From: Zingiber officinale
Taxonomy: Eukaryota > Streptophyta > Magnoliopsida > Zingiberales > Zingiberaceae
Reading direction: 5' to 3'
NCBI RefSeq assembly: GCF_018446385.1
Contig: NC_056001.1
Location: forward strand, 9,542,672-9,606,671
DNA: 64,000 nt
Part shown: positions 1,331 through 55,760 of the stretch, piece after piece
Layout: each line of letters opens with the position of its first letter
How positions within the stretch are numbered: position 1 is the first letter of the stretch
Translations under genes and position numbers: made by a program
The notes under the pieces: model-generated
The model's database searches: none
Told to the model about the DNA's origin: nothing
What the model saw: the letters and a program-made list of their open reading frames with translations, nothing else

Positions 1331-2260
1331 AACAATTACTGCTCATTGTTTCTATCCCAAGGTAAAGTGCTGCTATAAACTATTCTCTCTTCTAATGGGT
1401 AAGAATTAGTGCGACCATAAACCACTTATATTCTCTTCTCTAATGGGTAATGCCCTTAGGGTATAATATAAATGGTGGACGCATGACATCTCTAACATAA
1501 TGGTCAGCAGTCAATTACTAGGAACTGACGACCTGTGGTCACCCCATCATACGTCTAACATCTGTATACTTGTATTTACCTTCATTTATGTCCAGTGGGG
1601 CCAACACAAGAGGGCCGCTAAGGTAGCATATCTATTTTTTTTTTCTAATGAGTAAGAATTGATTTGCAAATGACACATGCTTCAAACTGCACACATCTAA
1701 ATTATACTAGTAGATAAATAAATAATATAAAAAACTTGTAAAAAATTAAACAAGAAAACGTGTAAAAAATAAAAAAAAAAAAATGTGAGGAAATGAGTGT
1801 AAAAAATTAAAAAGGAAAATCGTGTAAACAATAAAAAAATATATTTAAAAATAAAAAAGGAAAAATGTGTAAAAATTAAAAATAGGAAAAATGTTAACAA
1901 ATAAAAAAGGAATATCGTGTAAAAATTTTTAAAAAAAAAAGTAAAACAGTGTAAATAATAAAAAAGGAAATACGTGTAAAAAATATTAAAATAAAAATAA
2001 AAATAAAAATGTGTAAAAATAAAAGTGAAAAAACCCAATGAGATTGACTACATCGTGCTATTGCCATTTATTCAATATTATTGATACTAGAGGATTTGGG
2101 GAGCATGTTTTGCTTAATTGAAAAGGGGGATTATAACCATGTGAAAGCTGTTCCGCGCTGGCAATCCGAGTGATGACTCATTCAATAAAATCATGCGCAA
2201 ATCCTACACATCTAGCATCCATCGTTGCTGCTATTTTTTGTCCGTCGAATAGCTTCTATC
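1331..2260. other. unassigned repeat-like DNA with AT-rich low-complexity block
   Basis: No gene is visible. From about 1697 to 2035 the + strand is a degenerate A-rich array, with GTGTAAAAA followed by AAAAAGGAAAA recurring roughly every 30-40 bases. The long minus-strand reading frame here, made almost only of Phe, Tyr and Leu, is a composition artefact. The segment 1350-1640 has a TTCTAATGGGTAA motif twice (near 1394 and 1440), but I do not recognise the family. Confidence 0.5.
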
Positions 2261-2267
2261 TCTTACG

Positions 2268-2758
2268 ATGAGTTCGATGGCGGTGGGGGGTGATGACGAC
2301 AAAGAGTGGCCATAGCAAGGCCAAGGGGGCGAAGGTTGTTTCTTGGTCATAGAAGCTTGATCTCCAGTTCCCGGTGGGGTGCATCGCTCGTTACCTTAGG
2401 GTCGATCGATACTCTCAGCGTGTTGGTTCTAGTGCACCGGTCTCTCTCTACACGCCTCTAGTACATAGATGTTGAAGTAAATCACTTCGTTGTTTTGTTC
2501 TTTCACTAGAGATCCCCTTTTCTACCTAAATTTATATTTCTTTATTGTTCAAGGTGCTGGAGTTGGCCAGAAATGGTGCATCATCCTAAGGCACATTCAA
2601 TTGCTCATGAAGAATGATGAGGAGCTTGGCAAGCTCCTAGTGTGTGCGACGATTTCCAATGGTGGGTCATGCCCAACATCCATCGGGCTTTACTGCCCAA
2701 GAAGCAAGGCAGAGGGAAGAGTAAGCCGGAGATCAGATCATCCTCACAAGAATTCTAG
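2268..2758 (+). pseudogene. histone H2A pseudogene
   Basis: The translation shows pieces of the H2A fold in order. A basic N-terminal tail is followed by LQFPVG.IARYLRV then QRVG..APV (2357-2440). After a gap, VLELA, RHIQL and NDEELGKLL appear (2553-2640), and after a frame change near 2663, VMPNIHRALLPKK and a basic tail ending at TAG 2756-2758. H2A packs with H2B in the nucleosome. This copy has an in-frame stop in the tail (TAG at about 2346), a scrambled middle lacking part of the alpha2 helix region, and the frameshift, so it cannot make H2A. The 70-80 bases between the two blocks may be a relic intron. Order and similarity make the family call firm; the exact H2A subtype is not resolvable. 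Confidence 0.8.
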
Positions 2759-3049
2759 GATTTTTTTGTTAATCTTCATGTTTTGATTGTAAAAGAATCT
2801 TTAGAGTTGTAATTAAAAACATCTTTTAATTTAGTATTCGCAAGTATCTAATCTCAAATCATGTTGATTTATTCATCATTAGGCACAATTAACATGATAA
2901 TTTTGATTTACATAATTGATTAGGTAGCTTAATCTATAAAATTATTTAGATCACTTTTAATAAATCAATAGATTGTACTTTTAAGCATAGTTTGAAACAA
3001 ATCTAAAATTTCTAACATCAATTTTGAAATTACTCTTATTTTCGTGACA

Positions 3050-3604
3050 TATAAGAGCACGGTTCAAGAGTGGTTTGTAGAGCTCTTAAAGTTTTTTAAA
3101 ATGCCCTTTTATCCATGACATTTAGAAGTGGTTTGAATTTGCTCATATATTGTAAAAACACTCCTATATTTCTAGCTTTAACAATATTTTGAAGTGCTTC
3201 TATACCCATGACATTTAGAAGTGGTTTGGACCACTCCTAAATTTCTAGCATCAATAGTGTTTTAAAATCACTCTTATATTCATGGCATGCAGGAGCAGTT
3301 TAAAATTGTTCTTACACCTAAAGGGTTGTAGAGCGGTTTAAACTGCTCCTGGATTTATACCTATAGAAGCGGTTTGAAACCATTGTTACATGCACGTGTA
3401 AGATTGGTTTCAAACTGTACCTACATAGAATAATAGGAGCAGTTTTTCAACTTGTACCAACGGTTACAAAAATCGCTACTATAGGATATAAGGAAGGCAA
3501 CAAGAAGAGCAATTTTGCAACCGTTGGTAAAAGTGTAGGAGCGCTTGAAAACCGCTTTTGAAAGTAAAAAAAACTGCTCCTATATGGGTGTTTTTTTTGT
3601 AGTG
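3050..3604. mobile_element. right end of a CACTA (EnSpm) DNA transposon
   Basis: The segment ends at 3604 in GTTTTTTTTGTAGTG. Its reverse complement begins CACTACAAAAAAAAC, the classic CACTA terminus. Inside lie many copies of a subterminal motif of the form GGAGCGGTTT or AGGAGCAGTTT in both orientations (for example near 3300, 3365, 3430, 3540 and 3575), as expected for transposase-binding subterminal repeats. I could not find a matching left terminus in the window, so this is a truncated copy. No transposase is visible. The sequence to its right starts inside a copia-like LTR. Confidence 0.7.
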
Positions 3605-3937
3605 ACACTCCAACCAGGGTTATAAATACAGCCCTGGTCCCTGAAGCTGAAATAAAACACTTTGTAAACAACTTCTTCTGTCTAGCTTTGATTTTTGAGT
3701 GTTGTTATTGCTGTAAAGAGGCTTCTTCACCTGAAGAAGAATTCAGTGCGCTTTTTAATTTCCTTGGATTAACAACCTTCCTGGTTGTAACCAAGTAACT
3801 CTTTCGTGCCTCTTCTTTTCCTTATTTACTTAATTTATGTCATGCAAGTGTTTAATTAAGCTATAACATCCGAGGAAGGTTGTTTTTCTTTGCAGGGCTA
3901 TTCACCTCCCTCTAGCAGCCCACCAAGGGTCCTAACA
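3605..3937 (+). repeat. 5' LTR (3' part only) of copia-like retrotransposon
   Basis: It contains TATAAATAC at about 3620, then the R/U5 part, and ends CCTAACA at 3937, two bases before a canonical primer binding site. The U3 part is missing because the CACTA end abuts it. The U5 end resembles, in reverse complement, the LTR that starts at 55761 (ACCAAGGGTCCTAACA versus its CCAAGGGTCCTAACA), so it belongs to the same family as the gag-only elements. Confidence 0.7.
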
Positions 3938-3939
3938 AG

Positions 3940-3951
3940 TGGTATCAGAGC
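3940..3951 (+). other. primer binding site (initiator Met tRNA)
   Basis: TGGTATCAGAGC is complementary to the 3' end of plant initiator methionine tRNA and is the usual primer site of Ty1/copia elements. It starts two bases after the LTR end at 3937. Confidence 0.85.
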
Positions 3952-3996
3952 GAGGACGCCTCAGAAGGACTAACTGCCAACTAAAGAAACAAGGCA

Positions 3997-4318
3997 ATGG
4001 CCGGTGCAAGCATTCATTCACCAAAGTTCGAGGGAGACTTCGTACAATGGAAATGTTGGATGGAGGTATTTTTTAAAATGGATTTTGAGATTTTGTTAAT
4101 CATAAAATATGGTTTTATAGCCCCCAAGGACCAACATGGAGCTATAAAGGAAGAATGTTTATGGATGAAGAAAGAACAAGCTGATTTCATGGTGAATGGT
4201 AAAGCAGAATTTCATCTGTTGAGCGCCCTTCCACCCCAGAAGGTTAATCAAATCGGTAGTTACAACTCCGCCAAAGAGCTCTAGGAGGAATTTCTGGAAC
4301 TCCACGAAGGCACTCCTG
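3997..4318 (+). pseudogene. copia-like gag, N-terminal fragment
   Basis: It starts at the first ATG after the primer site and reads MAGASIHSPKFEGDFVQWK and onward, the usual start of a plant copia gag (DUF4219/UBN2 type) that would form the virus-like particle. A stop codon (TAG at 4282) interrupts the frame within KEL.EEFLELHEGTPE. The same motif is intact in the gag at 58472-58705. Homology stops abruptly at about 4318, where an opposite-strand gypsy gag begins, so the gene is truncated and dead. Confidence 0.75.
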
Positions 4319-5224
4319 AGCAGGTGGTCGAAGTCCTTCAGCGACCTTCGGATGAGTGAGCAGAAGAACTCTCCTTCAGTGAACCCCTGGGTGAAGGCAT
4401 TCACCAATATTTCCGAGGAGACTAATGGAGTATCGATGGCCACCTGGTTGAAACACTTGATGTAAGCCCTCAATGCCTCCTTGGGCCCTTGCTTCAAGGA
4501 AAACAGGTTAACGCTCGTCTTCTGGTAGCCGCGGCTGCTGGCGAAGTGATGTAAGAATACCTCTTGGAAGTCTTTGAAGCTATGGATTGATCCATTCAGC
4601 AATCTCCTGAACCAGCGTTGCGTCGATCCGGAGAAGGTCATGAGGAAGACCCAACATTTCACCCCATCGTTGTACTGATGAAGTGTGATCGTGTTATTAA
4701 ACTGGGCCAGATGGTCGTCCGGATCGATCATTCCATTGTACTCGCCGATCGTCAACTGGGTGTAGTGCTTTAGCAGAGGGTCATCCAAGATTCCCTGAGA
4801 GAACTGTTGATTGATCCCCTTGGGCAAATCATCATTCCTTAGTGCTTTCCCTTTACGCACGTCCTGAATGGGCGCATCGTCCGAGGAGGATCCTCGTTCC
4901 TTATCCACTTGGTTTAGCTCCTCATATGGAGTGTGCAAAAGTGCTCGATGGAAGGGGATCAACACGTTAGGCGCATCTCCATATATGTCGGTCGGTTTCT
5001 TACTCTGTCCCTGAACGGGTACATGCTCCACTCGATCTCCATATCCGGCTTGATGACCCACTATTGAGGCTGCAGGCTCCTGTACCTAGCGATCGGCCAA
5101 CACCTGTTGTTGTTACTCTATTATGTTTGTCGTTCAGGCTTGTATCAGCATATCCAGCTCCTCCTTTATTAAAGTCATCGTAGCGAGTCATCCAGTATCC
5201 TCCATCTTCGCATTTCAGATGCAA
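4319..5224 (-). pseudogene. Ty3/gypsy gag fragment (Tat-like)
   Basis: The minus strand reads a retrotransposon gag (capsid) domain: LTIGEYNGMIDPDDHLAQF, then TQRWFRRLLNGSIHSF, FLHHFASSRGYQK, LFSLKQGPKEALRAYIK and DFDHLLR. The same block, more decayed, occurs on the + strand at 20456-20800. The open frame (4159-5061) runs on past 4319 into antisense copia sequence, so its last about 50 residues (FVEFQKFLLELF and beyond) are an accidental fusion and not gag. The frame changes near 5061, and the N-terminal part lies at 5000-5224. Zinc knuckle and pol are missing. Confidence 0.85.
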
Positions 5225-5230
5225 GCTACG

Positions 5231-5250
5231 TTCCCACAGACGGCGCCAAT
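5231..5250 (-). other. gypsy primer binding site
   Basis: On the minus strand the sequence reads TGGCGCCGTCTGTGGGAA, a common primer site of plant Tat-type gypsy elements. It lies between the LTR and the gag start. The undecayed CpGs suggest a younger copy than the one at 19853. Confidence 0.8.
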
Positions 5251-5257
5251 ATGATCC

Positions 5258-5970
5258 TGTCCGAAAATCGTGGAGATGGCAAGCTGGGGATGTGGCTACA
5301 GCGTTGACTGGATATAGATTCCGCTCCTCTGCAACACAAGAAACGTCAGTACCGAGCCAGGGAAGGAGTCACCGGTGTTGACCCTCTGATGCTCAAGTCA
5401 GTCACCGGAAAGATGAAACAGATGAGGCAACAGTAGACACAAGTGTGAATAGTGAATAACGTGTACCTCCGTCGATGTATGAACCCATTTATATAGTGTC
5501 ATGGTGTACGATGTGCGCACTTCTCTTGAGACGTGGGCACGTTCTCCAATTGATAGTGGACACATTCTTCAATTTGTCCTATGAAAGAACATGTCAGGAA
5601 AGTGCTTCTGACACCATACCTTAACAGGGCATGCATATCCCTGATAAGACAGTAGAAGCTTTCGTCGTATGATCCGCTAGTTAATCATATCTTGTGTTAG
5701 TGGTGCTATCTCCCCGAAGGATACGTCAGTGATCCATCTGCTCGGCCGAGCGGGATAACCCCTCGACTGAGTACTCCTCCGCTCGGTCGGATTCGGTTGC
5801 TCTTCCGCATGACGACAAGTCGCGATAGTTTGTTTCCGCCAGACCGGACTAACGCTTCGGTCATACACACACTTCTCTGCTTTGTGACGATCGTGTGATG
5901 ATTTTTGCTAAACGGGCGCTTTGCTTAGATCAGTCCTTTACTGATCGGACAATATATACCCGATCAACCA
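5258..5970 (-). repeat. 5' LTR of the minus-strand gypsy element
   Basis: The inner boundary is set by the primer site: TGTCCG at 5258 on the + strand, which is CGGACA on the element strand. The outer boundary is approximate (CA at 5966 or 5970). A TATA-like ATTTATATAG lies at 5489-5498. The LTR is unlike those at 18970 and 60473, so this is a different subfamily although the gags are related. No target duplication can be checked because the element is cut at 4319. Confidence 0.6.
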
Positions 5971-8612
5971 CTATTGGAGAGATCCACTTAGTCCCTCAAC
6001 GTTTGATCATTTACCATTGACCTTCTTAACTTTGACATTCATATTAATTATTATCTTCATTATTTAATGGGTCCTCTTTTATCATTGCATCAAGTGCTAT
6101 AGTATTCGTACAATTGACCTAGTAGTCACCTGAACTAAACCCAACTGCTTTCCCAAAGTGTGTAATTAGGGAAAAAAAGGATAGGAGAGTTCAATAGGAA
6201 AAAAAGGACGCATGTGAAAGGATTCATGTGTTCATGCATGTAATCCCTACACACAGTCTTGTCAGATCATAGGTCGTACCAATTTGGCTCAAGTCATGTG
6301 GGTGCGTGATGAAACATCAAGCTGGGTCGTCCTCCATACCTTGCCTCTGGGCCAACGTTATCTTATTCGTTTCATGATTTGTCTTGGTCACCAATTCATA
6401 CCCTGTTTGGCATGCGTTCGCTTACTCGCAAATTGATTGCTGCACTTTGTATGCATTGTTTTTCATTCCTTTTGCATTGATTTTGATCAGTGGTCATTCA
6501 TCTAACGGCCGGCAAAGTTGGTCGGGTTAAATTAACTGCTATTTTTGCCGCTTGATTAACTAACGACATCTAACGGAAGCAAACGACTACTAAACCGTCA
6601 AGATTCTGCTGACACGTTAGGCCGAATCTGGGCGGTAAAATTACTCGATGATGGTGGTTGTGGTCCCCGATTAAATGACCTTACAGGCATACGGCGACCT
6701 GCCCGCCCACATGGTTTTTTATCCAATTCAAATCCGGCAACCACCGGACCGCAGAATCCGCCGACATCCCACGATCCCGACGGCAGGCACCGGGCCCACG
6801 GGCGGTGCAAGGCGGTTACGACCGTTCTTCCACGAATCCATTACGAGATACGACCTGGCGCGGCCTCAGATTCTGTGTCTGCGTTCGATTAGATTCGTTC
6901 ACTCATGTGATTGCGGCCTCTGCCTGCGCCCGCAGGCGGCCCCACCACGTGCCCCTGCGCGCCGCGTGTGAATTCGCGCGCGCTGTTTCTGGGCCGTCTC
7001 CCGGCCGAGTCATCTCCAGATGGTCGGGGCATCTACGATTACGAGATTTGAAGATGGCGGGAAGGTCGCGGTGCGGTCGGGTGTCTCGATCGGAAAAGGA
7101 ACCATGAGAACGATGCGTGGCGCTACCCGATGGGTCGCGTGTTAGTTCGCCACTTGGCAACTTCAGGCGAAGCCATTAATGTCGGCATCGTGTTTAATTC
7201 GTTCACTTCCTTAATTCACTAGTCGGCAGGTTCATTCTCGTCGTGTCCAGTTATATTAATTTTTTTATAGATATATATCCTTAACGAAAAATCTCTCAAT
7301 ATCTCTCACGTTATAAATTAATCTGATGATTTATCATATATTCTTTATATAATCTATTTATATAATCTGGGACGAATTACGGAGGAATATATGAGATAGC
7401 AATTATCTTTTTACTACAATAGTCAGCAGCATGTAGATAACTAAAACAAGATCTTAAGTAATTCATCAGTCCACTTTGGTTCCATTGAAAACAAAACTCA
7501 TTCTATCTAGAATATTAAAAATGAGAATATTTGATTAAATTTTTTTCTCAAAAATAAATAATTTTATTTTTAAAAGGCAGAAAAAGAAATTAATATTATT
7601 GTGAATTACTAAAATGAAAAACATGATATTATTCATCGCAAGTGGTTTAATATCATCAACCTCATAATTAAATACAGATGTATAAATTAGGTACCGAGAG
7701 AATCCCCATATGGAAGAGTATTTTTCACGATTTCATCATGATTCAACTAAGGACATATTTTTACCTAACATAGAGCACCAATGTGACGTTCTGATAAATT
7801 ATATGTCGGTGTTGTTGGTCCGATCAGGAGGCCAATAGGTCAAGGCATTCAATTTTTCCATTTTGTTTCTCCTCGACATGATGTTTGGCCATGTGAGATG
7901 TTGAATCCATCCATGACCCTTTGCCGAGCGATTTAACATTATCCATTTTATTCTATAAATTGTGGAACATGTAACTTTATTCTATCAATTTTTCCTTTTT
8001 GAAAAGGAGAACGCTATATATTTGTGTAAATGACGTGTACCCTTTCAATTGAAGCGTGGAAATCTTGCATTTACCTCGTCAATAATTTCAAAAAACACCA
8101 TTTATAAGAGTAAAACAAAAGGAGCTACGTTTGCACTGATGAACCTACTTAGAACAGATGTATAACATCAAATCTATGTTCTGTCTCGCAGGGAGACAAA
8201 TTAGCTAGCCACCTAATTGCTTTTACTTAGAACAAGAAATTAAAATACCCGCCACAACAACATCCAAAGCCGCGCAGCGACCAGACGGATAAACCAATTC
8301 AACGACCAGACGGATATGTTAATTAATTACTTTGCAATATTTAATTTAAAAAAAAAAGATGAGTTGTTACTTTTGCACCGCAAAACTTAAATAGTGATGT
8401 CAAATTTTAAGAAAAACTATAATTACATTTAAATCTTCATATTGTAGTAAACATGGACATCATTACGATTTCAAAAAGTAACGCGCTTTTTCAGCAAAAA
8501 AAGAATTACGTTGTGGAAAAAAACTCCTTTTTTGTTTCTCTCCTAATGTTAGGAATTAAAGAAATTTCGTATTCAAGGGAAGAAGAGCATGGGGATTGTT
8601 GGGCGAGAGGAT
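5971..8612. other. intergenic region upstream of CTP synthase gene
   Basis: I see no gene. A GC-rich, CpG-rich island lies at about 6600-7150. Its overlapping frames on both strands (70-100 codons, Arg/Pro-rich) look compositional. From 7250 the sequence turns AT-rich. It may hold distal regulatory DNA, but nothing specific can be supported. Confidence 0.5.
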
Positions 8613-16100: not shown

Positions 16101-16459
16101 GCTGGCCGTTAGCCGGGGAGTTGCAGGGACTACGGCACCAGCTGTAGTTAGGGTAACATAGTAAAAATGGGCAAAAGAGGAGGGTGGTGGGGACAAAAGC
16201 ATAGCGTCGCCAAGCTCAAATAAGCCATCACGTCCTCTGACCTCTCATCCTTCTGCTTCATCTCCTCCCGTCCGATCTCACTTCTCGATTTGGGCGTTTG
16301 AACTAAATCCTGGTAAAAACCTAAGCTTTTATTTTTCTCTCTTTTATCTCGATTCGCTGATTTGGAGGTTTGAAACTTGAGAAATGGTGGAAGGTGGGTG
16401 AGGCAAAGATATCTCTTTTTTTGCTGAATGTTCTTGCTCTGGAGTTGGAAGAGAAGGAA
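13196..16459. other. intergenic region between the two intact genes
   Basis: It starts with the CTP synthase 3' UTR (exact poly(A) site not assigned). From 13900 to 16000 no gene is recognised. A promoter-like patch lies at 14687-14770: a G-box-like CACGTGG at 14688, then TATAAAT at 14762. It is followed by a tiny reading frame of 17 codons at 14841-14894, treated as an observation only. The stretch 15840-16320 is GC-rich and is probably promoter and 5' UTR of the ERF gene. Confidence 0.5.
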
Positions 16460-17173
16460 ATGATTCCGGCGGACGGTGGTCGACGGATCGGCCTCAAGTT
16501 CTCCGAGCATGTCATTTCGACGAGAAAGACGGTCACGGCGGGAAGTGGGAGGAGAAGCGTCGTTCGTGTGTTCTTCGTCGATGCCGACGCCACCGACTCC
16601 TCGTCGAGCGGCGAGGAGCGCGGTGACCTCCGGCGCCGAGTGAAGCGCCACGTGCGTGAGATCCGGATCGAAGGGACGGCGCCGACGCAGAGCAGGAGGA
16701 GGGGGAAGGCGGAAAAGTGGTCTGGAGAGGCGCGCGAGAGCGGGGGGAAGCGGTTCCGCGGGGTGCGGAGGCGGCCGTGGGGTCGGTGGGCCGCGGAGAT
16801 ACGGGACCCGAACCAGCGGAAGAGGGTGTGGCTCGGGACCTTCAACACCGCCGAGGAGGCGGCGGCGGCGTACGACGAGGCCGCCGTCAGGCTGAAAGGG
16901 CCGAGGGCGGTGACCAACTTCGCGGAGAGGGCGACGTCCCCTCATTCTAAAAGTGGCGAAGTCGTAGCTGGGTCGCAATCTTCGCCGACGTCGGTGCTAC
17001 AGTATGTGGAAGACTGGGCGGCGCCGATCGAGTTCGCCGACGGCGGCTTAGCGGAGTTGGGAGGAGAGGCGTCGCCATTTTGGCTACATGACTCGTACTA
17101 TCGCCACTGGACGAGTCCGAGACTGAGTGAAGTGGCGGAGTTCGGTGACTTGGACACTGAAGATTTCTGCTAA
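16460..17173 (+). CDS. AP2/ERF transcription factor, cytokinin response factor (CRF) type
   Basis: It codes for a 237-residue nuclear DNA-binding protein with no intron. The CRF domain is at about 12-70: [14 protein letters not shown], then [15 protein letters not shown] and [13 protein letters not shown]. The single AP2 domain is at about 97-154: [21 protein letters not shown], then [21 protein letters not shown] and [10 protein letters not shown]. The Ala and Asp of the WAAEIRD block mark the ERF rather than DREB class, so GCC-box-like targets are expected. A SPTSVL motif at about 171 matches the CRF C-terminal phosphorylation motif, and the tail is acidic. CRFs act downstream of cytokinin two-component signalling. 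I chose ATG 16460 (MIPADGG) because the in-frame extension up to ATG 16370 has no CRF-like content. The gene is very GC-rich, like many monocot ERF genes. Confidence 0.93.
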
Positions 17174-24792: not shown

Positions 24793-25383
24793 TGTAACGA
24801 CCACCCTTCTTACTACTACTACACTCTAAGGATGACCGTTACTTGACTACTAACTCTACTTAACCGGTATGATTAAAAATCACATGGAAACCCTACCGAA
24901 AAATTTCGGCAGAGTCTCCCCTGTACCGGTGACCAAATCAACAATACAAATAATATATACTCAGCCACAGGCGGCTGGAACATATAATCACTCAACCACG
25001 CAGTATAATAACTCAATAAGAAGAATGAAACTACTCTAGCAATAGTAAACAAACAATACTCCAACAATAAAACATAACAAAGTGCGGAATAGACTCAATT
25101 ACAATCTCAACTTCATCATAGCATTAAGGAGAAAAGAAAAGGAAACATAACAAATCTTAAACTAAGTGAGTTCTTTAGCTAAGTCTCAAGGATCTCCATA
25201 GTCCACACATCACACACCGTCACAGCATCTCCTTGTCGCCTTCTTCCTTATACTTTAGCTTTTCCTTTATCTGCAGTAGGAGGAAAATAGTATCTATAAG
25301 CTAAAAGCTTAGTGAGCGCTATCCTACTCACAAAAACTCGATATGCATGTATATAAATAAAACATGCTAAAACTGAATGCTAA

Positions 25384-25813
25384 CATGTAAAGCTACTCAT
25401 GCTCATAAATAGCAAAGGAATCATGCTAACTGAAATACTAAACATGTACAGCTAATCATGCTCATAAATAGCAAAGAAATCATGCTAACTGAAATACTAA
25501 ACATGTATAGCTACTCATGCTCATAAATAGCAAAGGAATCATGCTAACTGAAATACTAAACATGTACAGCTACTCATGCTCATAAATAGCAAAGGAATCA
25601 TGCTAACTGAAATACTAAACATGTACAGCTAATCATGCTCATAAATAGCAAAGGAATCATGCTAACTGAAATACTAAACATGTATAGCTACTCATGCTCA
25701 TAAATAGCAAAGGAATCATGCTAACTGAAATACTAAACATGTACAGCTAATCATGCTCATAAATAGCAAAGGAATCATGCTAACTGAAATACTAAACATG
25801 TATAGCTAATCAT
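25384..25813. repeat. 59-bp tandem array (7 copies plus a partial)
   Basis: Units start at 25384, 25443, 25502, 25561, 25620, 25679, 25738 and 25797 (partial). Each begins CATGTACAGCTA or a close variant and contains CATGCTCATAAATAGCAAAG. Differences are confined to few sites (ACAG/ATAG/AAAG and CTAC/CTAA), which suggests recent amplification. The array lies within the solo LTR. Adjacent units with no unique spacers argue against a CRISPR. Confidence 0.95.
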
Positions 25814-35159: not shown

Positions 35160-35751
35160 AGCTTGGAAAGTCTGATTATCTAGACTCTCATGTCATTCAG
35201 CCGAGTTATAAGTGTGTTTGCTCACATGCCTAAATTCCAGACTCTCGTGTCGTTCAGTCAAGTTATAAGTATGCTTGCTCACGCACCTAAGTCTTAGATT
35301 CTCATATTATTTGACCAGGTTATAAGTGTGCTTGCTCACGCACCTATATCCCAGACTCAGTTACCATTCGGCCAAGTTATAACTGTTCTTACTCATGCAC
35401 CTAAGTTTCAGACTCTCTTACTGCTCGACCGAGTTATAAGCGTGTTTGTTCACACACCTAAGTTTTAAACTCTCAAGTTGTTCGACCGAGTTATAAGTGT
35501 AGTTGCTCACGTGCATAAGTCTTAGACTCTCATGTCGTTCGGCCGAATTATAAGTGTGCTTACTCGCACATCTAAGTCTCAGACTCTCGTGCCATTATGC
35601 CGAGTTATAAGAGTGCTTGCTCATATGCGTAAGTCTCAGACTCTCGTTTCATTCAGTCGAGTTATAAGCATGCTTGCTCACTCACCTAAGTTCCAAACTC
35701 TCATGTCGTTTGAACAAGTTATAAGCATGTTTTCTCACACGCCTAAGTCAC
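35160..35751. repeat. 57-bp tandem array, first block
   Basis: About ten diverged units carry GACTCTC.TGTCGTTC, GAGTTATAAG and TTGCTCAC..CACCTAAGT. The period of 57 bases is 19 codons, so a frame stays open across several units (35532-35750). The array lies just downstream of integrase in the outer gypsy, where Tat-lineage elements often have tandem repeats. It is split by two later insertions and resumes at 39402 and 40786. Confidence 0.9.
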
Positions 35752-36860: not shown

Positions 36861-37748
36861 ATGATAGATTTCTATCACTTAGGGAAACTGGTTTACTGCA
36901 ACAATACAGTAAACCAGGATTTGTGTACACAGTTCTATCACAACCTCGAAAAGGTTGATGATAGTACGTACTCCACCAGAGTTGGTGGAACAGACATCCA
37001 GTTCACTCCCTCCCTGATTTGCATTAGCTTAGAGCTTAGGGAGTCTTCATGTACATTTCTATGCTACCCGAGTAGGGATCTACTATTCGGTGATCCCTAT
37101 TCCCATATCACCTTAGACACCATCTACATGCATTTTTTTGGGGAGGAGAGACCATTTGGCCTGACTGAGTTTAGGTCGACTCTTCTTAGGGTTCAGGACT
37201 ACGTTATGTACAGACTCCTGATAGCATGCATTTTGTCGATCACATCTCGAGACGTCTTGAAGATGCGACCGTCCCACTCATTCTTTCTGTACGCCCTAAG
37301 TCAGCGCCTAGATATAGACATTGCACTGCATATGTTCTATAACATTATACATGCATCTAGTACAGTCACATCTGGAGTAGTCCACATGCCCTACTGTCAT
37401 ATCTTGACTCAGATCTTCTCCACCTCTAGGATAGACACAGCCATAGGGACACTCATCTCACTTACACTATACGACGAGTTAGGGCAGCGTAGTCTTCGAT
37501 TAGTCGGTATAGAGGTCACCGCTGAGGGGATTCTGGCCTGGAAGGGTCGACCACAGCCAGCCGCTGCTCCTATTGCTCCAGAGGCCGAGGATGCACCGGG
37601 CGAGGGAGAGGAGTGGCCCGACTTCCTAGCCGAGGAGTTGTTCGTAGATCCGTTACCTTCCACCTCTGTCGGGCCTTCCACATCAGCCGGACCTTCGACT
37701 TCGACATCACTTTCTGTCGAGGACAGACTCGCTCGACTCGAGATTTAG
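36861..37748 (+). CDS. retroelement ORF with plant transposon protein (Transposase_32-like) domain
   Basis: A 295-residue open frame. FTQFCHP and AVQ upstream of the ATG read in the same frame back to about 36730, so the true protein probably starts earlier and is truncated by a stop near 36718. Residues 1-225 resemble the domain in many plant retrotransposon polyproteins: FYHNLEKVDDSTYSTRVGG, a motif before FTPSLICISL, and HMPYCHILTQIF. Residues 225-285 are acidic and then Pro/Ser/Thr-rich, with a repeated GPSTSAGPSTST. The end, SVEDRLARLEI, looks like a coiled-coil start. The same domain, reversed and decayed, is at 32440-33030. Function is unknown. An AT-rich spacer follows, as in SIRE-like elements. 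It is probably a fragment of a retroelement rather than a host gene. Confidence 0.6.
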   Translation: MIDFYHLGKLVYCNNTVNQDLCTQFYHNLEKVDDSTYSTRVGGTDIQFTPSLICISLELRESSCTFLCYPSRDLLFGDPYSHITLDTIYMHFFGEERPFGLTEFRSTLLRVQDYVMYRLLIACILSITSRDVLKMRPSHSFFLYALSQRLDIDIALHMFYNIIHASSTVTSGVVHMPYCHILTQIFSTSRIDTAIGTLISLTLYDELGQRSLRLVGIEVTAEGILAWKGRPQPAAAPIAPEAEDAPGEGEEWPDFLAEELFVDPLPSTSVGPSTSAGPSTSTSLSVEDRLARLEI

Positions 37749-38059: not shown

Positions 38060-39401
38060 AATGTGTCGGGTAGAATAGATCTTATTTTCAAATTTCTTAC
38101 AATCTAACTTTAAAATTTCTATTGATCTTTAAATCTGCTTAAGTTTAAAATTATATTTTGAAATTCTAGGAAAAATAATATTTTCAAAATCCCAGTTTTC
38201 TTAGCTCTTTTAAATGTGGACTTAGCCTAGGATCTTCCCCCTAGATATTATGTTCCCCTAGTTTCAGTCAGAGCATCTCACAAACACACTAGGCATAACT
38301 TGTTTGTGTTTGCAAAACTTAGAACGATGTGAGATACATAGGATTCAGCCTGGACTCCAGAATGCTTATTTCTGTGCATCATAGTGAGTCTGGGCGTTAA
38401 AATATGTTATATACATGAATCAACTTAAGTCATCCAGCACTAGTCAAATCTAACTGGATCTATTGACTTAACTTGACTAACCAAGTGAAAATTGTTGCCC
38501 TCTAGACAATCAGCTAGTAGCTAGATGGTTAGACATGTGGCCAAGAACTTAAGTGATTGATTTTAATTTTTTTTACTCATGCTTAGGCATTAGGGCTCTG
38601 ATACCTTACTAAAATAAATTAATTAATTTGCAATCTCTTTAACTCAGCCCATGCTTGGACATTAAGGCTTTAAGCTGATTAATCCTCCTTTGCCTTTAAA
38701 TATTTTGGACTTCTTTTTCGGTTAAATATTTTGTTAGCCTTTCTTAACTTTCAAATCTCTTCAAAATCTACTAAGTATCTTTTAATAGCTTTTGAAAATT
38801 TAGCTAAATATTTATTTTTTAACAGATTTTGAAAATTTAGCTAAGTATTTTTCTAACAGATTTTGAAAATTTAGCTAAATATTCTTCTCACAGATTTTAA
38901 AAATTTAGCTAAGTATTTTTCTAACAGATTTTGAAAATTTAGCTAAATATTCTTCTCACAGATTTTGAAAATTTAGCTAAGTATTTTTCTAATAGATTTT
39001 GAAAATTTAGCTAAATATTCTTCTCACAGATTTTAAAAATTTAGCTAAGTATTTTTCTAACAGATTTTGAAAATTTAGCTAAATATTCTTCTCACAGATT
39101 TTGAAAATTTAGCTAAGTATTTTTCTAATAGATTTTGAAAATTTAGCTAAATATTCTTCTCACAAAATTTCAAAATTTAACTAAGTATTTTTCTAAATAG
39201 ATTGTTAAAATTTAGCTAAGACTTTCAAAGTATATCAACTTACCTGAAGGATGCTTCAATATGATTTTCAAATTTTACAAAGAATTCAACTAAGGTACAA
39301 AAATTAGCTAACATTATCTTTCAAAATCAACGTTTTATTTAGTTGAAAGAAAAACATCTCTTTATACCCTTATTTCTCTATTTTTCCAACTATAAATTAT
39401 G
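38060..39401 (+). mobile_element. AT-rich retroelement spacer with 34-bp array
   Basis: This noncoding stretch follows the ORF at 36861 and resembles the A/T-rich spacer seen before the polypurine tracts of the SIRE-like and gag-only elements. A block at 38220-38420 (CTTCCCCCTAGATATTATG and CATACTAGGCATAAC-like text) is not recognised. No polypurine tract or LTR follows, so the insertion is truncated on the right. Confidence 0.5.
38788..39226. repeat. 34-bp tandem array with 68- and 136-bp higher-order periods
   Basis: Units of 34 bases start at 38825 and every 34 bases to 39131, then decay. They alternate between a TATTTTTCTAACA-type end and a TATTCTTCTCACA-type end, giving a 68-bp dimer. 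The odd units alternate again, giving a 136-bp period: 38893-39028 and 39029-39164 are identical by my reading. Diverged units flank the array on both sides. Confidence 0.9.
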
Positions 39402-40785: not shown

Positions 40786-41140
40786 TGTTTGCTCATGTGC
40801 CTAAGTTCAAAACTCTCGTGTTGTTCAATTGTGTTATAAGCATGTTTGATCATGCACCTAAGTTCTAGAATCTCGTGTCATTTGATCGAGTTATAAGTGT
40901 ATTTGCTCACACGCCAAAGTCTCGGACTTTCAAACCGTTCGACCGAGTTATAAGTGTGATGCTCACGTACCTAAGTCCCAGACTCTCATGCCATTCGACT
41001 AAGTTATAAGTGTGTTTGCTCACACGTCTAAGTTCTAGACTCTCATGTTGTTTGGCCGAGTAATAAGCGTGTATACTCAAATGCCTAAGTTCCAGACTCT
41101 TAAGTCTTAGCACCGAGTTATAAGCAGGTTTTCCCGTCTC
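40786..41140. repeat. 57-bp array, third block
   Basis: About six more diverged units with TTTGCTCA..TGCCTAAGT and GAGTTATAAG. The flanking copy begins TGTTTGCTCATG and joins in register to the block ending at 39478 when the solo LTR is removed. Confidence 0.85.
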
Positions 41141-49129: not shown

Positions 49130-49639
49130 CCTTCAAGGGTTGAAGGTACCTTCCTCCCGAAAAGCGCGAGGGCGCCTTCAATACCATTGAAGGCGCCTTC
49201 AGCAGCTGCTACCGAGCTTCAAACTTCTTCTTTGGCTCTTCCGCTGCTCCGCCCACTTGGGTGATTTCGGCCATCCCGAATAGGGCTCACCCAAACTCAT
49301 TTTATGACCTTCTCCTCGAGCAGGCTTCCTCCCCGACTTCTCGTCCCTCAAGCATCGCACACGTCTTCTCGTCCACCAGTGTACTCTTTCGCAGCATCTC
49401 GTCCCTCGGATGCACCGAGCCCGTCAGCTCCTTTCCCGTGCCATCATTCTCGCTAGCTGCGTCTTCCGCTCGATTTCTTGTATTCCTAAGTTCCTGCACA
49501 CTTAGACACAAGGATTAAACACAACATGACCTAACTGAACTTAGCTGACCACATCAAAACTACCCCTGGGTTCTAACACCTACGACTCGGCTAGCGCCTT
49601 CTTCACCCACTACAACAAAATCTCTCATAGACATCAGTG

Positions 49640-49830
49640 GAACAACAATAGTTTTAGGCTAAAACCGATGTCTTTGAGTATTTTACACCGGTTTTTCTAA
49701 AAATCGGTGTCTATGACCGCAGATTTTAGCTCATAGACATCGGTTTTTTATGCGATGTCTATGAGCGCCCTTTTTTTCGTTAATAGACACCAATTTTAAC
49801 ATCGGTTTTTAAAATCCGATGTTAATGAAC
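49640..49830. repeat. left subterminal repeats of the Pack-CACTA
   Basis: It contains several copies, in both directions, of a core close to AAACCGATGTCTATGA or its complement (TCATAGACATCGG), for example at 49660, 49700, 49728 and 49752. They probably bind transposase, by analogy with EnSpm. Confidence 0.75.
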
Positions 49831-50111
49831 CAAAATAAAATATTTTAATTTCTCCACAAGCCAAAATCTGCACACTGTGAAGTTCCCTCCAAACCTAAAT
49901 CTTTATCCCGCCCCTTCCTCCGCGCGACCATCTCTCTCGCGTAAACCTAAACCGAGACATCTCTCTCAGCCTAAACCTAAACCTCCGACCATCTCTCTCA
50001 GCCTCATCTCCCTCTTCCCCCTTCCTAGATCCTTTCCCGATCAGGATCAAGACACGACGAACTTGCTTCTCCGTCCAACCACACCGCATCTCCTCCAACT
50101 CCTCCATTTGG

Positions 50112-50519
50112 TTGAGAAGAGGAGGCCTTCTTCGCATTCCGGTAGTCCATACTTTATCTTTTCCTTTCTACTTCCTCCTGTTTTTGTGTTCGGTTCTGCT
50201 CCCTTCCCATGAGGCTGCTTTCCTCTCGGAGTTGCCCAACCTCGCCACTATCTCCTTTGAGGAAGGCTACACCCAACTGTTCGAAGACTCCAACCTCATG
50301 CTTCACGGCGACGACCGGACTATCCACCTCTCCCTCGACCAACGAATAGGTTCTGTTAAAAGATTTTTTTTAAAAAAAAGAAAGGGGCATCTTTGAACCT
50401 ACCTTGTTCTGTGATCAGGTGCTGCATTTGCGTCGCAAGATCTCTACCTCCATGGATTCTTTAGTGCCTCCATTAAACTGCCCTCCGATTACGTGGCTGG
50501 AGTGGTGGTTGCTTTCTAT
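50112..50519 (+). pseudogene. captured XTH gene fragment (exons 1 and 2)
   Basis: XTH enzymes cut and rejoin xyloglucan in the cell wall. Exon 1 ends at 50349 and exon 2 is 50419-50519; a 69-base intron with GT..AG ends is retained. The text is signal-peptide-like, then ISFEEGYTQLFEDSN, then an LDQRIG end, then FASQDLYLHGFFSASIKLPS and DYVAGVVVAFY. That is the N-terminal third of a group III XTH and stops before the catalytic ExDxE strand, so no enzyme can result. The captured frame is nearly open, which suggests a rather recent capture. The call rests on family motifs and exon phase. Confidence 0.85.
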
Positions 50520-50573
50520 GTATGCTTCTTTACTTCGAGTTTAGATTTTGCAGCACTTTCCTTTACCTGTTTG

Positions 50574-50625
50574 AAAGAAGAAGAAGAAGAAGAAGGAGGA
50601 GGAGGAGGAGGAAAAAACAAAAACA
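50574..50625. repeat. GAA/GGA microsatellite
   Basis: GAA repeats followed by GGA repeats, between the XTH and DUF1639 pieces. It generates spurious Glu/Gly, Arg and Ser/Leu frames. Confidence 0.9.
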
Positions 50626-50930
50626 ATCTCTCCTCCGCCGCGATGGGCTCTGTAACGGTCCTCGCATCACTCTGCAATGGGGGTGCCGCAAGCGCCTCCG
50701 CCGCATCAAGGTCAGGGACAAAGGATCCGCCGCAAAATCTGGCGTCCGGAGGGGAATCACGTCTCGGAATGTCCGCTACATCGCAGATCAAGAGTCCCCC
50801 CTGCACCCGCCTCTTTATCCCCTCAGGTAATAGATCGGAGGTTGATCCGGAAAAGTTAGGGTTTGATCTAGTTTGAGGTGTCGGCGGTGAGATATGGAAG
50901 TAACCACTGCTCCGATTTATCCACAGGAGG

Positions 50931-51232
50931 TTGGAATCGGCCGAGAGCGAGAACCATAACTCCCAATCTGTCTCGTCATCGCCGGATAAGGATGACCGTT
51001 GCTACACGACCAGGGGATCGGCGGCGTTGGTATGCGAGGGCGAGAACGCCGACGAAAGAGCCTCGGCAGCCTCTCTACCTCGATTCTTCGTTTCACTGTC
51101 GAACAAGGAGACGGAGGAGGACTTCATGGTGATGAGGGGTGCAAGCTGCCGCAGCGACCCAAGAAGAGATCCAAATTCGTCCAAAAATGCATACTCGTAC
51201 GCTTCCATTCCCTCCAAAAACCCGTTTTTTAA
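50931..51232 (+). pseudogene. captured DUF1639-family gene fragment
   Basis: The + strand reads SSPDKDD, then PRFFVSLSNKETEEDFMVMRG (51077-51137). After a 1-base frame change it reads CKLPQRPKKRSKFVQKC (51140-51193). This is the order of the conserved plant DUF1639 core: SLSxEEIEEDF..MTG, then RRPKKRxKxVQK. The segment ends before the LFPGLWL motif of the family. Function of the family is unknown (probably nuclear). The frameshift makes it nonfunctional. The bases at 50640-50880 upstream may be from the same source gene but are not recognisable. Confidence 0.7.
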
Positions 51233-51720
51233 GATCAAACAGTCGAAAAAACTAATTTTTTCCTCTAATTTCTTTGACAAACTCGATCTAGTTGGTGAGT
51301 CCTGGAGCATGGCTGTCAGATCTCTCACAGGAGAGGTATGTAGTCAGGGAGAAGAAGGGATCAAGAAAGGTAGAAATTCTCTCTCTACCTTCGACTAATT
51401 TGCTCGTCTCGTTCCTGCATCCCATTCACATCTCATGTTCTTTTGTTTCCTGTTCCATAATTCGCAGAGGAGAAGAGGATTAAAGGCCATGTCCATGGAG
51501 AGTGATTCAGAATGAAGCAAAAGGGAGAGGTAATACTAATTGCTATCATTGATTATGATCGAATTTGAATTTTTCCGTCAGAATTTAATTTTCCCATGAC
51601 TCATCATTCAAATTTATTTTGTATCTTGTATAACTTAGTTAATTTTGTTAATCCAGCGGATGGTGGCTGACTTTTACGGTGGGAAAATCTTACTAAAGGT
51701 TAATCTTTATGTTCGTGCAG

Positions 51721-53751
51721 ACCTAGTGGTTGCTAGTGTTGGTGACGATAAAAAGATATCACTTTGGAATAAAAATGGCCAAAGTATGGGATCCTTTCCT
51801 TCTCACGGCAGCGACCTTGCTGATGACATTGAGGTAGCTCATTGTTTGCTCATTAATTTGTTCTATTGTGATCAATACATCTGGTTTTCTGGAAATTTAC
51901 AGATGCCCGGATGCCATTCAAATCATTGCCTGCATTTTTTCCCCCCTGTCTCTCTGTCTCTCTTGGAAGAAAAGCACTGGAACTGTTGGCACGATAGAAA
52001 TTGCCACCTTCTTGCTATGTTGTGTCTGGGTATTTTCTTCCATCAATATTTTCTTCGAACAATGGTGATTGTTCGTTTGACTCCCTTATGAATTTTAGCA
52101 TACATGTTGAACAAATAAGAAGAAAATAGCTAGCATATCTCTTTTGCTAGGTAGGTTATTTCTTTTCATCTAATTGTACAGCAATGTCTGCCAATATAGC
52201 AAAGTCTGACTTTGACTTTTACAGTTGATGACTTTGCAAAAATTGCTTATTCTGCTATTACACATTGAAGAAATAAGAGACTTAAAAGCTAGATTTTCTC
52301 CTTTTCCAGGTAGTTTTTTTTCTTTGCGTTTGAGTGCAGAGCATGGAAAATGTTGCTTGTAAACATAGAATGAGTACAACTTGATTATTCTGCAAGTTTT
52401 CACTTGATGGTAAAAATTAAGAGAAATTTTATGACTGTGCCGTGTTTCGATATTTGCAATTGTAATAATATGAATCCTTTACGTTATTTTTGTATGTTTC
52501 ATTGTAATGCTAAGTACCGCTCCTGAGCCTTGTTTCCCCTTGTTGTGATTAGGGACAAATTAGTGCATACTCGCAGTCTGGGTGACTATACCTGTATTTT
52601 TTTAGTAAGCTTACCGATTCTGATTGATGCCTAACAGGACCTAAATGACAATATGGCCATGGGTTTAAGTAATAAAAACACTTCTTATCTGTGTAATTAT
52701 GAGTGCATAATATATCAAACATTTTAAAGATTTTTTTACTTTTCTCTATTTTGTAGGAATCCATAAATTGTATCAGCTTTAGTAATAAAAGTTCTAGATA
52801 TCTTTGCTCTGGAGGAAGTGGGCATATTGTCAAAATATGGGACCTGCAGAGGAAAAGGTGCATCAAACGGTTGAGTGGTCATATTGACACAATTACAGGT
52901 GTAATGTACAACTGCAAAGATGAACATTTAGCATCCATCAACGAGAAGGGGGATCTCATACTTCATTATCTTGCTTCCGGAACACGGGCTGAACTCAAGG
53001 ATCCAAATGGGCAGGTTATTGGCTGTCAAATATTTTGAAAATTCCAAACTTTCGCTCTACTAACATCTTTTTTGGTTTAACATGAATCTGTATCGGTGAT
53101 GCGATTTCAGGTACTAAGAGTACTTGATTATTCTCGATTTAGTCGACATCTTTTGTCAACAGCTGGGGATGATGGATCTATTCATATTTGGGATACAACT
53201 GGTCGCAGACCAAAGGTTAGTAAAATAATATTTCTTAATCTGCTAAAATGAAGGAGAAATTGTATTTGTTCCCTGCATTCACTAAAAAATTGATCTCCAT
53301 TCATACTGGCTCTTGGTGTCAGGTTTCTTGGTTGAAACAACATTCTGCCCCAACAACTGGTATTTGCTTCTCTCCATCAAGTGACAAGGTATTATCTTCC
53401 TAGGAATCTATTAAATGATTTGGATTTCTGGTGGATAATTATACATGGTTTGGCTAGTTTTGTTGGATGGGAGGTGCTTGTTCTATAGAAAATCAATGGC
53501 CATTATATCCTAACTTGTTTTCCTTGTAGATTATTGTTACAGTTGGTCTTGATAAAAAGTTGTATATGTTTGATTCTGGAACAAAAAGACCCTCATATTG
53601 CATGCCTTTTGAGGCACCCTTCTGATCGCTGGCATACTGTGATGATGGTAATCTATTGGTTGCTGGGACAAATAATGGACGTGTAGTATTCTATGATGTT
53701 CGAGGGAAACCTCAACCTTTCACAGTTCTTCGTGCATACAGTAGTTCAGAG
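51721..53751 (+). pseudogene. captured NEDD1-like WD40 gene fragment (five exons)
   Basis: NEDD1 guides gamma-tubulin to microtubules. Exons: 51721-51833, 52757-53014, 53111-53215, 53323-53388, 53530-53751, all with GT..AG introns. They read [108 protein letters not shown] and [20 protein letters not shown]. These are successive WD40 blades of plant NEDD1 (about residues 95-360 of nearly 800). The N-terminal blade and the coiled-coil C-terminus are absent. One premature stop (TGA 53623-53625, in APF.SLAY) is the only visible lesion, so capture looks recent. Confidence 0.9.
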
Positions 53752-55380
53752 GTAAGATATCTTATCTGCCAAGAATAGCATGTATTTCATAGTCATCTTG
53801 ATTCTTTTTTTCACTGCTTCATTAAATAGTCTATTTATATGCTGATGATAGCATGCCTTTCATAGTCATGTTTGTTCTTTTTATGCTAAACAATCCTGTC
53901 AGGTCATGCAGAACATGCAAGCATATAGATGCTGCAAAGGTTTTTATTAGTTTATTTGATCTCATATGACATATTTAGATTCAATTTCATCAAGTAATCT
54001 GAGAAAATCACACGTTTGGGTTTTAGATTATTAGATCACAGGCAGTGCACATAGATAAAAAAAATCTACCTTTTTAAATAAAGATTGATTGAAAATTACA
54101 TCTGTGCTAGTTTATTGATACCTGTTATGATGCTTGATTAGCCTTGTGAAATAAATTATAAGTGAGAACAGATACAATATATTTATGTGATATTTAAAGA
54201 AGTGTTTTCACTGTGATTTTGGGTATTCATCAAAAGTTTAATAAATAAAGAAATCATTTTTTTCCCCGTCTCTCTGGTTTACATCTTTTCTTCAGTTCCA
54301 CCATTGTTAATGATTATTCTAGAGTGACCTGCATGTCTTTGGTTTACATCTCTGATTCAATTCAATAATTGTTAGTGAATTGATTTCTACTAGATGATTG
54401 CTCTGCAACCACAGTATGTCTTTTCTGTAAGTCTTATGCATGTCTCACCTTGGGTGTTGTTTCCCACAGTTCTAAAACACAACTAATTTACTTGATGTAT
54501 TCATGAGAAGGAAAAATACAACTGAGTTCTAAAGCAATTGATGCTCTGTTAAAGTTGCAAAAGAATTACTAAAATTTGATGATGTTCTTGGCAGACTAAT
54601 AGCATGTGTGAACAATTTGAATACCACTGCTTTATATGTTAATAAATTTGAAGAAATATAATTAACCACGGCTAGCTATACATAGTATAATCTCATCTTT
54701 TGCTATTTGATGTTTTCCTTCAAATATGTCCTAAGCATTTATTTATTTCGGCTTGAACCTGCAAACATTGTTTATGTCCTACAAATATACATTCAACAAT
54801 GGTAGAAGATTTTATAGAAGTTGACTAAAAATGACAACACTGCTCCCTGCAATTATAAGCTTCATCAGAGGTAGTAGCTTTGCTCTTCTATGCTTCACTG
54901 GATTTGTTGGGTAGTCATATTTCTTTGTTCAACCATTATCATGCCTAGTAAGTTGTTGTATTATGCCTAGTAAGTTGTTGTATGATGCCTACTAATATAT
55001 TATTTATGTGTTTTTACAGTTTACAAATCTCAAGTACTCCATAGTTGAAATTGATGAAGTGCGGTTCGAGTGGGCTGAATGCATGCTAGATTACATTTGA
55101 AGTGCGGTTCTACCTTGATGTGTTGTTAAAAGAATGTTCTACCTTGATGTTGATATCTATTAGCTAGCTTTTGATGTAAAAAGAATGTTTGGGTATTTTA
55201 TGGATACTGTTGTAAGAAGATTATTTATATAATTTGTGAATATTTGTGTATTTTATGGATATTGTTGAATGAAGAATATTTGTATAATTTGTGAATATTT
55301 GTGTATTTTTTTTATTATTGTCGGTTTTTCATTGTTTCGGAAATTAAATTTGTGCTGTTAAAAAATATACATATTACATC
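53752..55380 (+). other. intron-like and 3'-end sequence of the Pack-CACTA
   Basis: No gene is recognised in 53752-55010. At 55019-55100 after a TTTTTACAG acceptor a short open stretch ends in TGA (FTNLKYSIVEIDEV and onward), which may be a terminal exon. From 55110 to 55310 there are repeats (GTTCTACCTTGATG and TTTGTGAATATTTGTGTATTTT, each twice) that resemble a 3' UTR. Confidence 0.4.
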
Positions 55381-55675
55381 GGTTTTCCACCGTTGCAAAA
55401 TTGGTGTTGTTAAATAATATTACATCGGTCATTTACCGCTGCCAAAACTGGTGTTATTAACATACAATATTACATCGGTTTTACACCGTTGATGAAACGG
55501 TGTCGTTAAGTGATACTACACCGGTTAATAACCGATTTGAAGACCGGTGTCGTTAAGTGATACTACACCGGTTTTAACCCGATGTCTAAAATGGCAGACT
55601 TTTAACATCGGCTTCATAGACATCGGTCGAAAATGAAATAGACACCGGTGGAAAACCGATGTCTATGAGGGTTTT
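55380..55675. repeat. right subterminal repeats of the Pack-CACTA
   Basis: Repeated ACATCGGTTTT, TACACCGGTT and ACCGGTGTCGTTAAGTGATAC units, in tandem and inverted, mirror those at the left end. Confidence 0.75.
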
Positions 55676-55760
55676 TGTTGTAGTGACCTGTCAGATCCTC
55701 GGTCGAGCCAATCAGTAAAAGTCTATCGCTCTCTAACTCTGCCTCACTGCAACCGTCTAT

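Follow-up and report, generated by a model that had tools for sequence, protein, structure and literature searches.

Structure of the element

The window analysed here is a 64,000-nucleotide stretch of the ginger (Zingiber officinale) genome (C16:9542672-9606671), taken to belong to the 3.09-Gb assembly that was searched in this work. Positions 49608-55685 of the window are occupied by a non-autonomous CACTA element, 6.1 kb in length, whose inverted termini begin with CACTA and whose cargo comprises exons 1 and 2 of an XTH gene, nearly the whole of a DUF1639 gene and five exons of NEDD1, with introns kept. An initial annotation had proposed a Pack-CACTA element with DNA of three unrelated genes, a proposal supported by dispersed copies, target duplications, intact parents and the introns themselves. 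Its parts are arranged as follows.

49605-49607, no strand: target-site duplication ACC (left)
49608-49638, + strand: left terminal inverted repeat, beginning CACTACAACAAAA, 28 of 31 nt pairing with the right end
49608-49850, + strand: left subterminal repeat region (ATCGGT/ACCGAT motifs)
49851-50154, + strand: leader between the CACTA end and XTH, of unassigned origin, with 30-bp tandem units at 49926-50004
50155-50349, + strand: XTH28 exon 1, lacking the ATG and beginning at about codon 5; its left edge is approximate, placed at protein level by alignment to intact P0123
50419-50519, + strand: XTH28 exon 2, preceded by the kept intron 50350-50418 and followed by donor GTATGC
50520-50672, + strand: XTH intron-2 remnant and linker with a purine run
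50673-51515, + strand: DUF1639 gene (Pfam PF07797; P0002), from about codon 24 to the stop TGA at 51513-51515
50673-50826, 50927-51196, 51292-51369 and 51468-51515, + strand: DUF1639 exons
51575-54256, + strand: NEDD1 capture from parent intron 1 to intron 5, with flanking intron, collinear with L039/L040
51721-51833, + strand: captured NEDD1 coding exon 1 of 5, the parent's second coding exon
52757-53014, + strand: captured NEDD1 exon 2 of 5
53111-53215, + strand: captured NEDD1 exon 3 of 5
53323-53388, + strand: captured NEDD1 exon 4 of 5
53530-53751, + strand: captured NEDD1 exon 5 of 5, containing TGA at 53623-53625
54255-54394, + strand: at the 3' border of the NEDD1 capture, jump back to a piece of parent intron 1 (L039 3307-3427, 79.7% with gaps)
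55020-55102, + strand: possible terminal exon after an AG acceptor, near the right end, its translation ending ...LKYSIVEIDEVRFEWAECMLDYI at a TGA stop
55351-55685, + strand: right subterminal repeat region
55655-55685, - strand: right terminal inverted repeat
55686-55688, no strand: target-site duplication ACC (right)

The terminal inverted repeats extend over 31 nt with 28 paired, two of the mismatches falling within the first 28 bases, which is the extent that had been assigned to them before; the perfect ACC duplication noted at the same time is present at both borders. Subterminal motifs of the form A[CT]CGGT/ACCG[AG]T, also anticipated, occur 15 times in the 560 end bases against 0.61 expected from 2000 first-order Markov simulations (simulated maximum, 4), and two hits lie between the two end regions. 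The claimed absence of transposase agrees with our failure to find a transposase domain in 10 scanned open reading frames (ORFs) out of the 30 stop-to-stop ORFs of at least 55 aa. CACTA inverted termini, a 3-bp target duplication and subterminal repeats place the element in the CACTA superfamily, while the lack of transposase in the scanned ORFs, the host coding DNA with parents elsewhere and the multiple copies are those of a Pack-CACTA. Pack-MULEs, by contrast, carry 9-11-bp duplications and MULE ends, where 3-bp duplications and CACTA ends are found here. Leftover internal termini were sought at the capture junctions and none were found beyond the two motif hits, and the ORFs scanned in the leader were without Pfam match.

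Captured pieces and their parent genes

The XTH piece matches GH16 (E 1.2e-7), the DUF1639 piece matches PF07797 (E 1.2e-19) and the NEDD1 piece matches PDB chain 9pzm_I (E 1.4e-126), colinear over residues 47-301. Eight GT-AG introns lie within these pieces (one in XTH, three in DUF1639, four in NEDD1), which argues against capture from spliced mRNA, as had been reasoned initially, and differs from retrogene or long terminal repeat (LTR) capture with loss of introns. The possible terminal exon, for which no Pfam family match was obtained at E 1, is preceded by a ninth GT-AG interval, 53752-55019, of composite make-up.

The NEDD1 parent was absent from the best 120 of 490 proteins (275-875 aa) and was afterwards found as DNA at two loci, L039 (C18) and L040 (C17). 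In both, the five captured exons lie in order between the first NEDD1 exon and the exon that follows them downstream; the reading of the parents covers these seven exons, and the detailed junction comparison is that with L039. The five exons are open in the parents (254 aa, no stops, AG/GT at every edge), and no CACTA-like ends were found in the 6.8 kb examined of each. With 99.6% identity in the compared segment (0.38% difference), the two loci are read, from their sequences, as two alleles of the NEDD1 parent. The capture is collinear with both at 98.2-98.3% over positions 2363-4649 of the element, and in a 1592-bp segment the parent DNA is 98.9% identical to the window copy and up to 99.5% identical to other copies.

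For XTH, protein-level comparison gives P0123, a 333-aa XTH28, as the parent. The captured part begins at about codon 5 and stops after exon 2, upstream of DELDFEF, which we take to be the XTH active-site motif, so that neither the start codon nor catalysis was carried along; the signal-peptide exon of the initial annotation is present as exon 1 but does not include the ATG. The window differs from P0123 at 7 of 99 positions, three of these being common to nearly all elements; T69I and G72A are found in 10/10 element rows and A95V in 9/10. The DUF1639 parent, P0002, is 206 aa in length with its own N-terminus and agrees with the window at 172 of 184 positions. The gene contents were thus read correctly for XTH exons 1-2 and the five NEDD1 exons, but the supposed DUF1639 fragment is really most of the gene, with about the first 23 codons missing. 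Intact parents, proposed earlier as a test, exist for NEDD1 as DNA and for XTH28 and DUF1639 as proteins.

Dispersed copies in the ginger genome

The genome search gave 47 match rows with at least 13 full-length copies including the window (29 of 6152 candidates scored), and with the XTH piece alone there were 117 candidate places, of which 40 were scored and were all at least 95% identical. We read 28 stretches for copies: 20 were readable at both CACTA ends, six were cut off at one end (counting L024, whose cut end is perhaps apparent only) and two were the NEDD1 parents. A perfect 3-bp duplication flanks 20 of the 21 loci read at both ends, that is, the window and 19 of the 20 others with variants and sister elements included; the exception is L012, with an imperfect TTA/TCA duplication. 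L028 and L033 have flanks in common and are probably alleles. The dispersed copies that the initial annotation suggested looking for were found, spread over many chromosomes, together with their target duplications.

Sixteen sequences were aligned (13 of standard form, L021 with a shortened right end and the variants L025 and L026) and are 97.6-99.1% alike. Positions 50612-50680 of the window align unbroken in 16/16. A lost splice acceptor at the XTH-DUF1639 junction of the window copy was considered and dropped, AA being present there in 16/16 aligned copies. The lesions reported before are real, each being found in 2/16 aligned copies: the 1-bp DUF1639 deletion near 51134 in the window and L009, and the NEDD1 TGA at 53623-53625 in the window and L026. 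L024, L025 and L026 retain about 190 bp of NEDD1 intron 1 (at about 51964 of the window) absent from standard copies; in L026, most of XTH is missing as well.

Sister elements with other cargo

The CACTA family is modular, the same XTH exons being joined to differing cargo. As protein models, P0122 and P0124 combine them with a Tat/Hcf106 piece and P0125 with aldehyde dehydrogenase. As DNA, L045 (14-4000) matches element positions 1-1845 at 94.8%, covering the left CACTA terminus, XTH and the greater part of DUF1639, and continues with a CCT-eta piece instead of NEDD1 (PDB E 2e-12; Pfam Cpn60 E 4.8e-8, just under its cut-off); it was read over 4 kb, the right end lying outside. Further ORFs at 2963-3208 and 3252-3494 of L045 are without clear match, and P0126 is an annotated ginger protein with the same XTH exons fused to an unidentified piece.

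Five loci, two of them the probable alleles, hold 5.4-kb CACTA elements (L027, L028, L033-L035) whose cargo in L027 (element at 1061-6444) consists of a PPR ORF (E 3.2e-85), a piece of a DEG2-like protease (E 1.4e-26) and NEDD1; the other four are 99.5-99.8% like L027. Over its right 330 bp, L027 shares 99.4% identity with L025, 97.9% with L026 and 94.8-95.2% with L009 and the window; at its left end, identity to each of the four is 87-88%. NEDD1 sites 381 and 1009 are derived in the five PPR+DEG2+NEDD1 loci and L024/L025 and in 0/19 other element copies, and at site 655 these seven retain the parental base, which is lost in the remaining 19, with site 1525 giving a mixed picture. The simplest reading of these sequences is that the PPR+DEG2+NEDD1 elements are hybrids of the left part of one element and the right part of another, a structure predicted by the neighbouring-insertion model of Pack-CACTA formation as set out in PMC8903248 and PMC13317346. 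P0238 is a NEDD1-like model running into a reverse transcriptase (precomputed RVT_1 domain), probably a CACTA copy adjoining a retroelement or a wrong model.

Number, order and age of the captures

In an XTH tree of 24 rows, built with six truncated models excluded, the 10 rows from elements group as a single clade (support 99/94) beside P0123, whose branch length is 0. Four NEDD1 sites unlike both parent alleles occur in 26/26 element copies, covering every cargo type sampled, so that all of them probably descend from a single captured copy. The XTH clade and the NEDD1 sites together point to single captures that would later have spread and been exchanged. A clean cargo-based split of the XTH models, as suggested by residue 29 (S in 6/6 DUF1639-type rows, P in 3/4 others), was not borne out by the tree.

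For the age of the NEDD1 capture we used the 1592-bp segment in 18 standard copies. Divergence from the parent alleles is 0.50-1.38% there, with a mean of 0.78% and a value of 1.07% for the window copy, and pairwise divergence among the copies is 0-1.65%, averaging 0.53%. One available substitution rate is 6.5e-9 per site per year. The other, 1.3e-8 per site per year, was applied to LTR elements in ginger (PMC8342452). The capture would be roughly 0.2-0.4 million years (My) old, a rough figure given that 58 of the 79 changes in NEDD1 copies are C>T or G>A and that this excess inflates ages. Mean between-copy identity falls from NEDD1 (99.2%) through DUF1639 (98.1%) to XTH (97.4%), a gradient that would fit XTH being captured first and NEDD1 last, although the order can only be inferred because base composition and methylation contribute to it. 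The recent capture of the initial annotation thus holds for NEDD1, 98.9% identical to its parent, whereas the XTH capture seems older.

Mutation pattern and coding potential

Changes were counted as departures from the majority sequence over the 16 copies in chosen regions, the counts not being independent among related copies. Of 628 changes, 327 fall at CG/CHG sites, which make up 681 of 5347 positions, with 289 of these 327 being C>T or G>A, the pattern that methylated DNA would be expected to show. The ratio of nonsynonymous to synonymous changes (N/S) relative to expectation is 0.98 for NEDD1 (28 N, 11 S, 5 nonsense) and 1.21 for DUF1639 (76 N, 25 S, 7 nonsense), with no sign of purifying selection in either.

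Splice sites are present in the window element, and the initial annotation had envisaged a chimeric transcript running from XTH toward NEDD1. For the window copy this idea is weakened by the missing XTH ATG, the DUF1639 frameshift and stop before NEDD1, and the TGA in NEDD1 itself. In six exon combinations of the window copy, an XTH-NEDD1 join was found in none of the three longest ORFs of each. The longest in-frame XTH-DUF1639 ORF has 218 residues, ends out of frame beyond the deletion and depends on a join at 50600, which is not a splice site. With no XTH start codon and with a DUF1639 stop ahead of NEDD1, this copy is unlikely to yield a three-part protein.

Public ginger annotation nevertheless holds XTH+DUF1639 gene models (P0003, P0004 and others), a three-way chimera model (P0008) and a cluster of 283-aa NEDD1-like proteins with 18 members. 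A predicted structure of one of these, P0237, is WD40-propeller-like with 24 strands (pLDDT, the predicted local distance difference test, of 69), and the best PDB match of the model is 9nbi_I, the NEDD1 WD domain of an augmin entry. Gene models are annotation, not expression. That the combination seemed undescribed fits the open-licence PMC literature, in which no paper on ginger Pack-CACTA elements or gene capture was found; the word CACTA occurs 0 times in the main text of two ginger genome papers. Chimeric models, on the other hand, have already been annotated, some as 'GH16 domain-containing protein' or 'NEDD1-like'.

Other features of the window

The left flank of the element (49130-49578) belongs to a repeat that has further copies within the window (near 43333, 56334 and 59413) and in many other parts of the genome. 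An ORF at 16370-17170 (+ strand) with an AP2/ERF domain (E 4.6e-16) is likely a host transcription factor gene. Another ORF, at 36861-37745 (+ strand), matches Transposase_32 weakly (E 1.3e-8, not reaching the Pfam cut-off), and a retrotransposon gag domain lies at 4162-5061 (- strand). Tandem arrays are found at 25355-25813 (period 59/118 bp), 35182-35749 (57 bp) and 38763-39220 (34/68 bp), with the 57-bp array recurring at 40786-41125.

Discussion

We observed CACTA ends, target duplications, dispersed copies, intact parents, kept introns and sister elements with other cargo, and consider it highly probable that they reflect a Pack-CACTA which gained host DNA stepwise and is mobilised by transposase that an autonomous relative supplies in trans. 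An ancestor would have taken up XTH28 exons first, then DUF1639 and finally NEDD1 DNA about 0.2-0.4 My ago, with new cargo coming partly from two neighbouring elements mobilised as one, the left of one with the right of the other. The transposase acting in trans would be that of the autonomous relative, and the copies would then have been methylated and silenced and be decaying, their gene pieces being carried along as passengers for the most part and perhaps spliced into stray transcripts.

Several observations weigh against this account or parts of it. A search for the empty site (flanks joined; window and genome, 40 of 17178 genome candidates scored) gave no junction-spanning match and hence no empty allele, the matches listed being the two flanks themselves and repeat copies of either flank, and the left flank is a high-copy repeat. 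The XTH28 and DUF1639 parents were compared as proteins. The XTH tree does not separate DUF1639-bearing from Tat/aldehyde-dehydrogenase-bearing models (2 and 3 changes), and the four shared NEDD1 sites could alternatively be changes in the parent or come from another, unsampled allele. XTH has a relative N/S of 0.39 (25 N, 27 S and 0 nonsense of 52), unlike neutrality, a type of count that shared ancestry inflates. Finally, the jump from NEDD1 intron 5 back to intron 1 looks like template switching rather than simple fusion.

This last point leads to the most serious alternative, by which the gap left by a CACTA excision was repaired with template switches to the parent genes, capture thus coming about by copying rather than through joint mobilisation. 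We regard it as possible, if the less probable route: the jump at 54255-54256 has a 2-nt overlap and no terminal repeats are left within the element (the two motif hits between the end regions apart), but the intron-1 piece might be a dispersed repeat, and in the PPR+DEG2+NEDD1 elements the left end and the right half come from different subfamilies, which is the outcome expected from joint mobilisation. A more far-reaching proposal, that CACTA half-swapping is an ongoing combinatorial exon shuffling of which at least one product, such as the truncated NEDD1 WD40 propeller that many copies encode, is produced and disturbs augmin or the nucleation of microtubules, strikes us as improbable; such interference is, on the structural model, conceivable but unsupported. 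We think it still less likely that the element is a selected gene whose chimeric or truncated protein matters to ginger. The public models for XTH+DUF1639, the three-way chimera and the 283-aa cluster would agree with this, as would the propeller-like model of P0237 and the low XTH ratio; these gene models are not expression data, however, the confidence of the structural model is moderate, NEDD1 and DUF1639 show neutral ratios with five and seven nonsense changes over 16 copies, changes are enriched at CG/CHG, and the window copy lacks the XTH ATG and bears a frameshift, a stop and a TGA. Three neighbouring degraded genes with CACTA-like ends by chance, and no capture, are already refuted by the same ends and junctions, where inspected, within different flanks at many loci, by the duplications and by the parents elsewhere.

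Comparable elements are known from other systems. Pack-MULEs and gene-carrying Helitrons also hold multiple captured gene fragments, while their termini and target duplications differ. Pack-CACTA elements of Arabidopsis, reportedly the subject of work by Catoni in 2019, have 3-bp duplications. The ginger element is like them in its CACTACAA ends, 3-bp duplications, lack of transposase and cargo from several loci, and unlike them in being 6.1 kb in length with three captures and eight kept introns, and in having its NEDD1 parent alleles and apparent hybrid sisters in the same assembly. For the Arabidopsis elements, PMC8903248 gives CACTACAA ends, no transposase and coding DNA from several loci, and proposes fusion of neighbouring insertions. 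In soybean, Tgm-Express1 (PMC1947982) is a 5.7-kb CACTA element containing fragments of five unrelated genes, and splicing of its exons yields chimeric transcripts. Both are CACTA elements with parts of unrelated genes and with exons and introns kept; unlike Tgm-Express1, which lies inside a host gene and for which RNA was shown, the ginger element is a multi-copy family described here at the DNA level. The kind of element is already known; the ginger family adds a member that is young, well preserved and modular.

Gene pick-up and exchange by CACTA elements are hard to reconstruct from old, degraded copies. In ginger, two NEDD1 parent alleles, many young copies, intermediates and apparent hybrids are found in one assembly, making the order of capture and the choice between fusion and template switch directly testable. 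They also call for caution with ginger gene annotation, in which several models named 'GH16 domain-containing' or 'NEDD1-like' are transposon cargo. The element thereby represents a clear, young case of a known plant route of exon shuffling.

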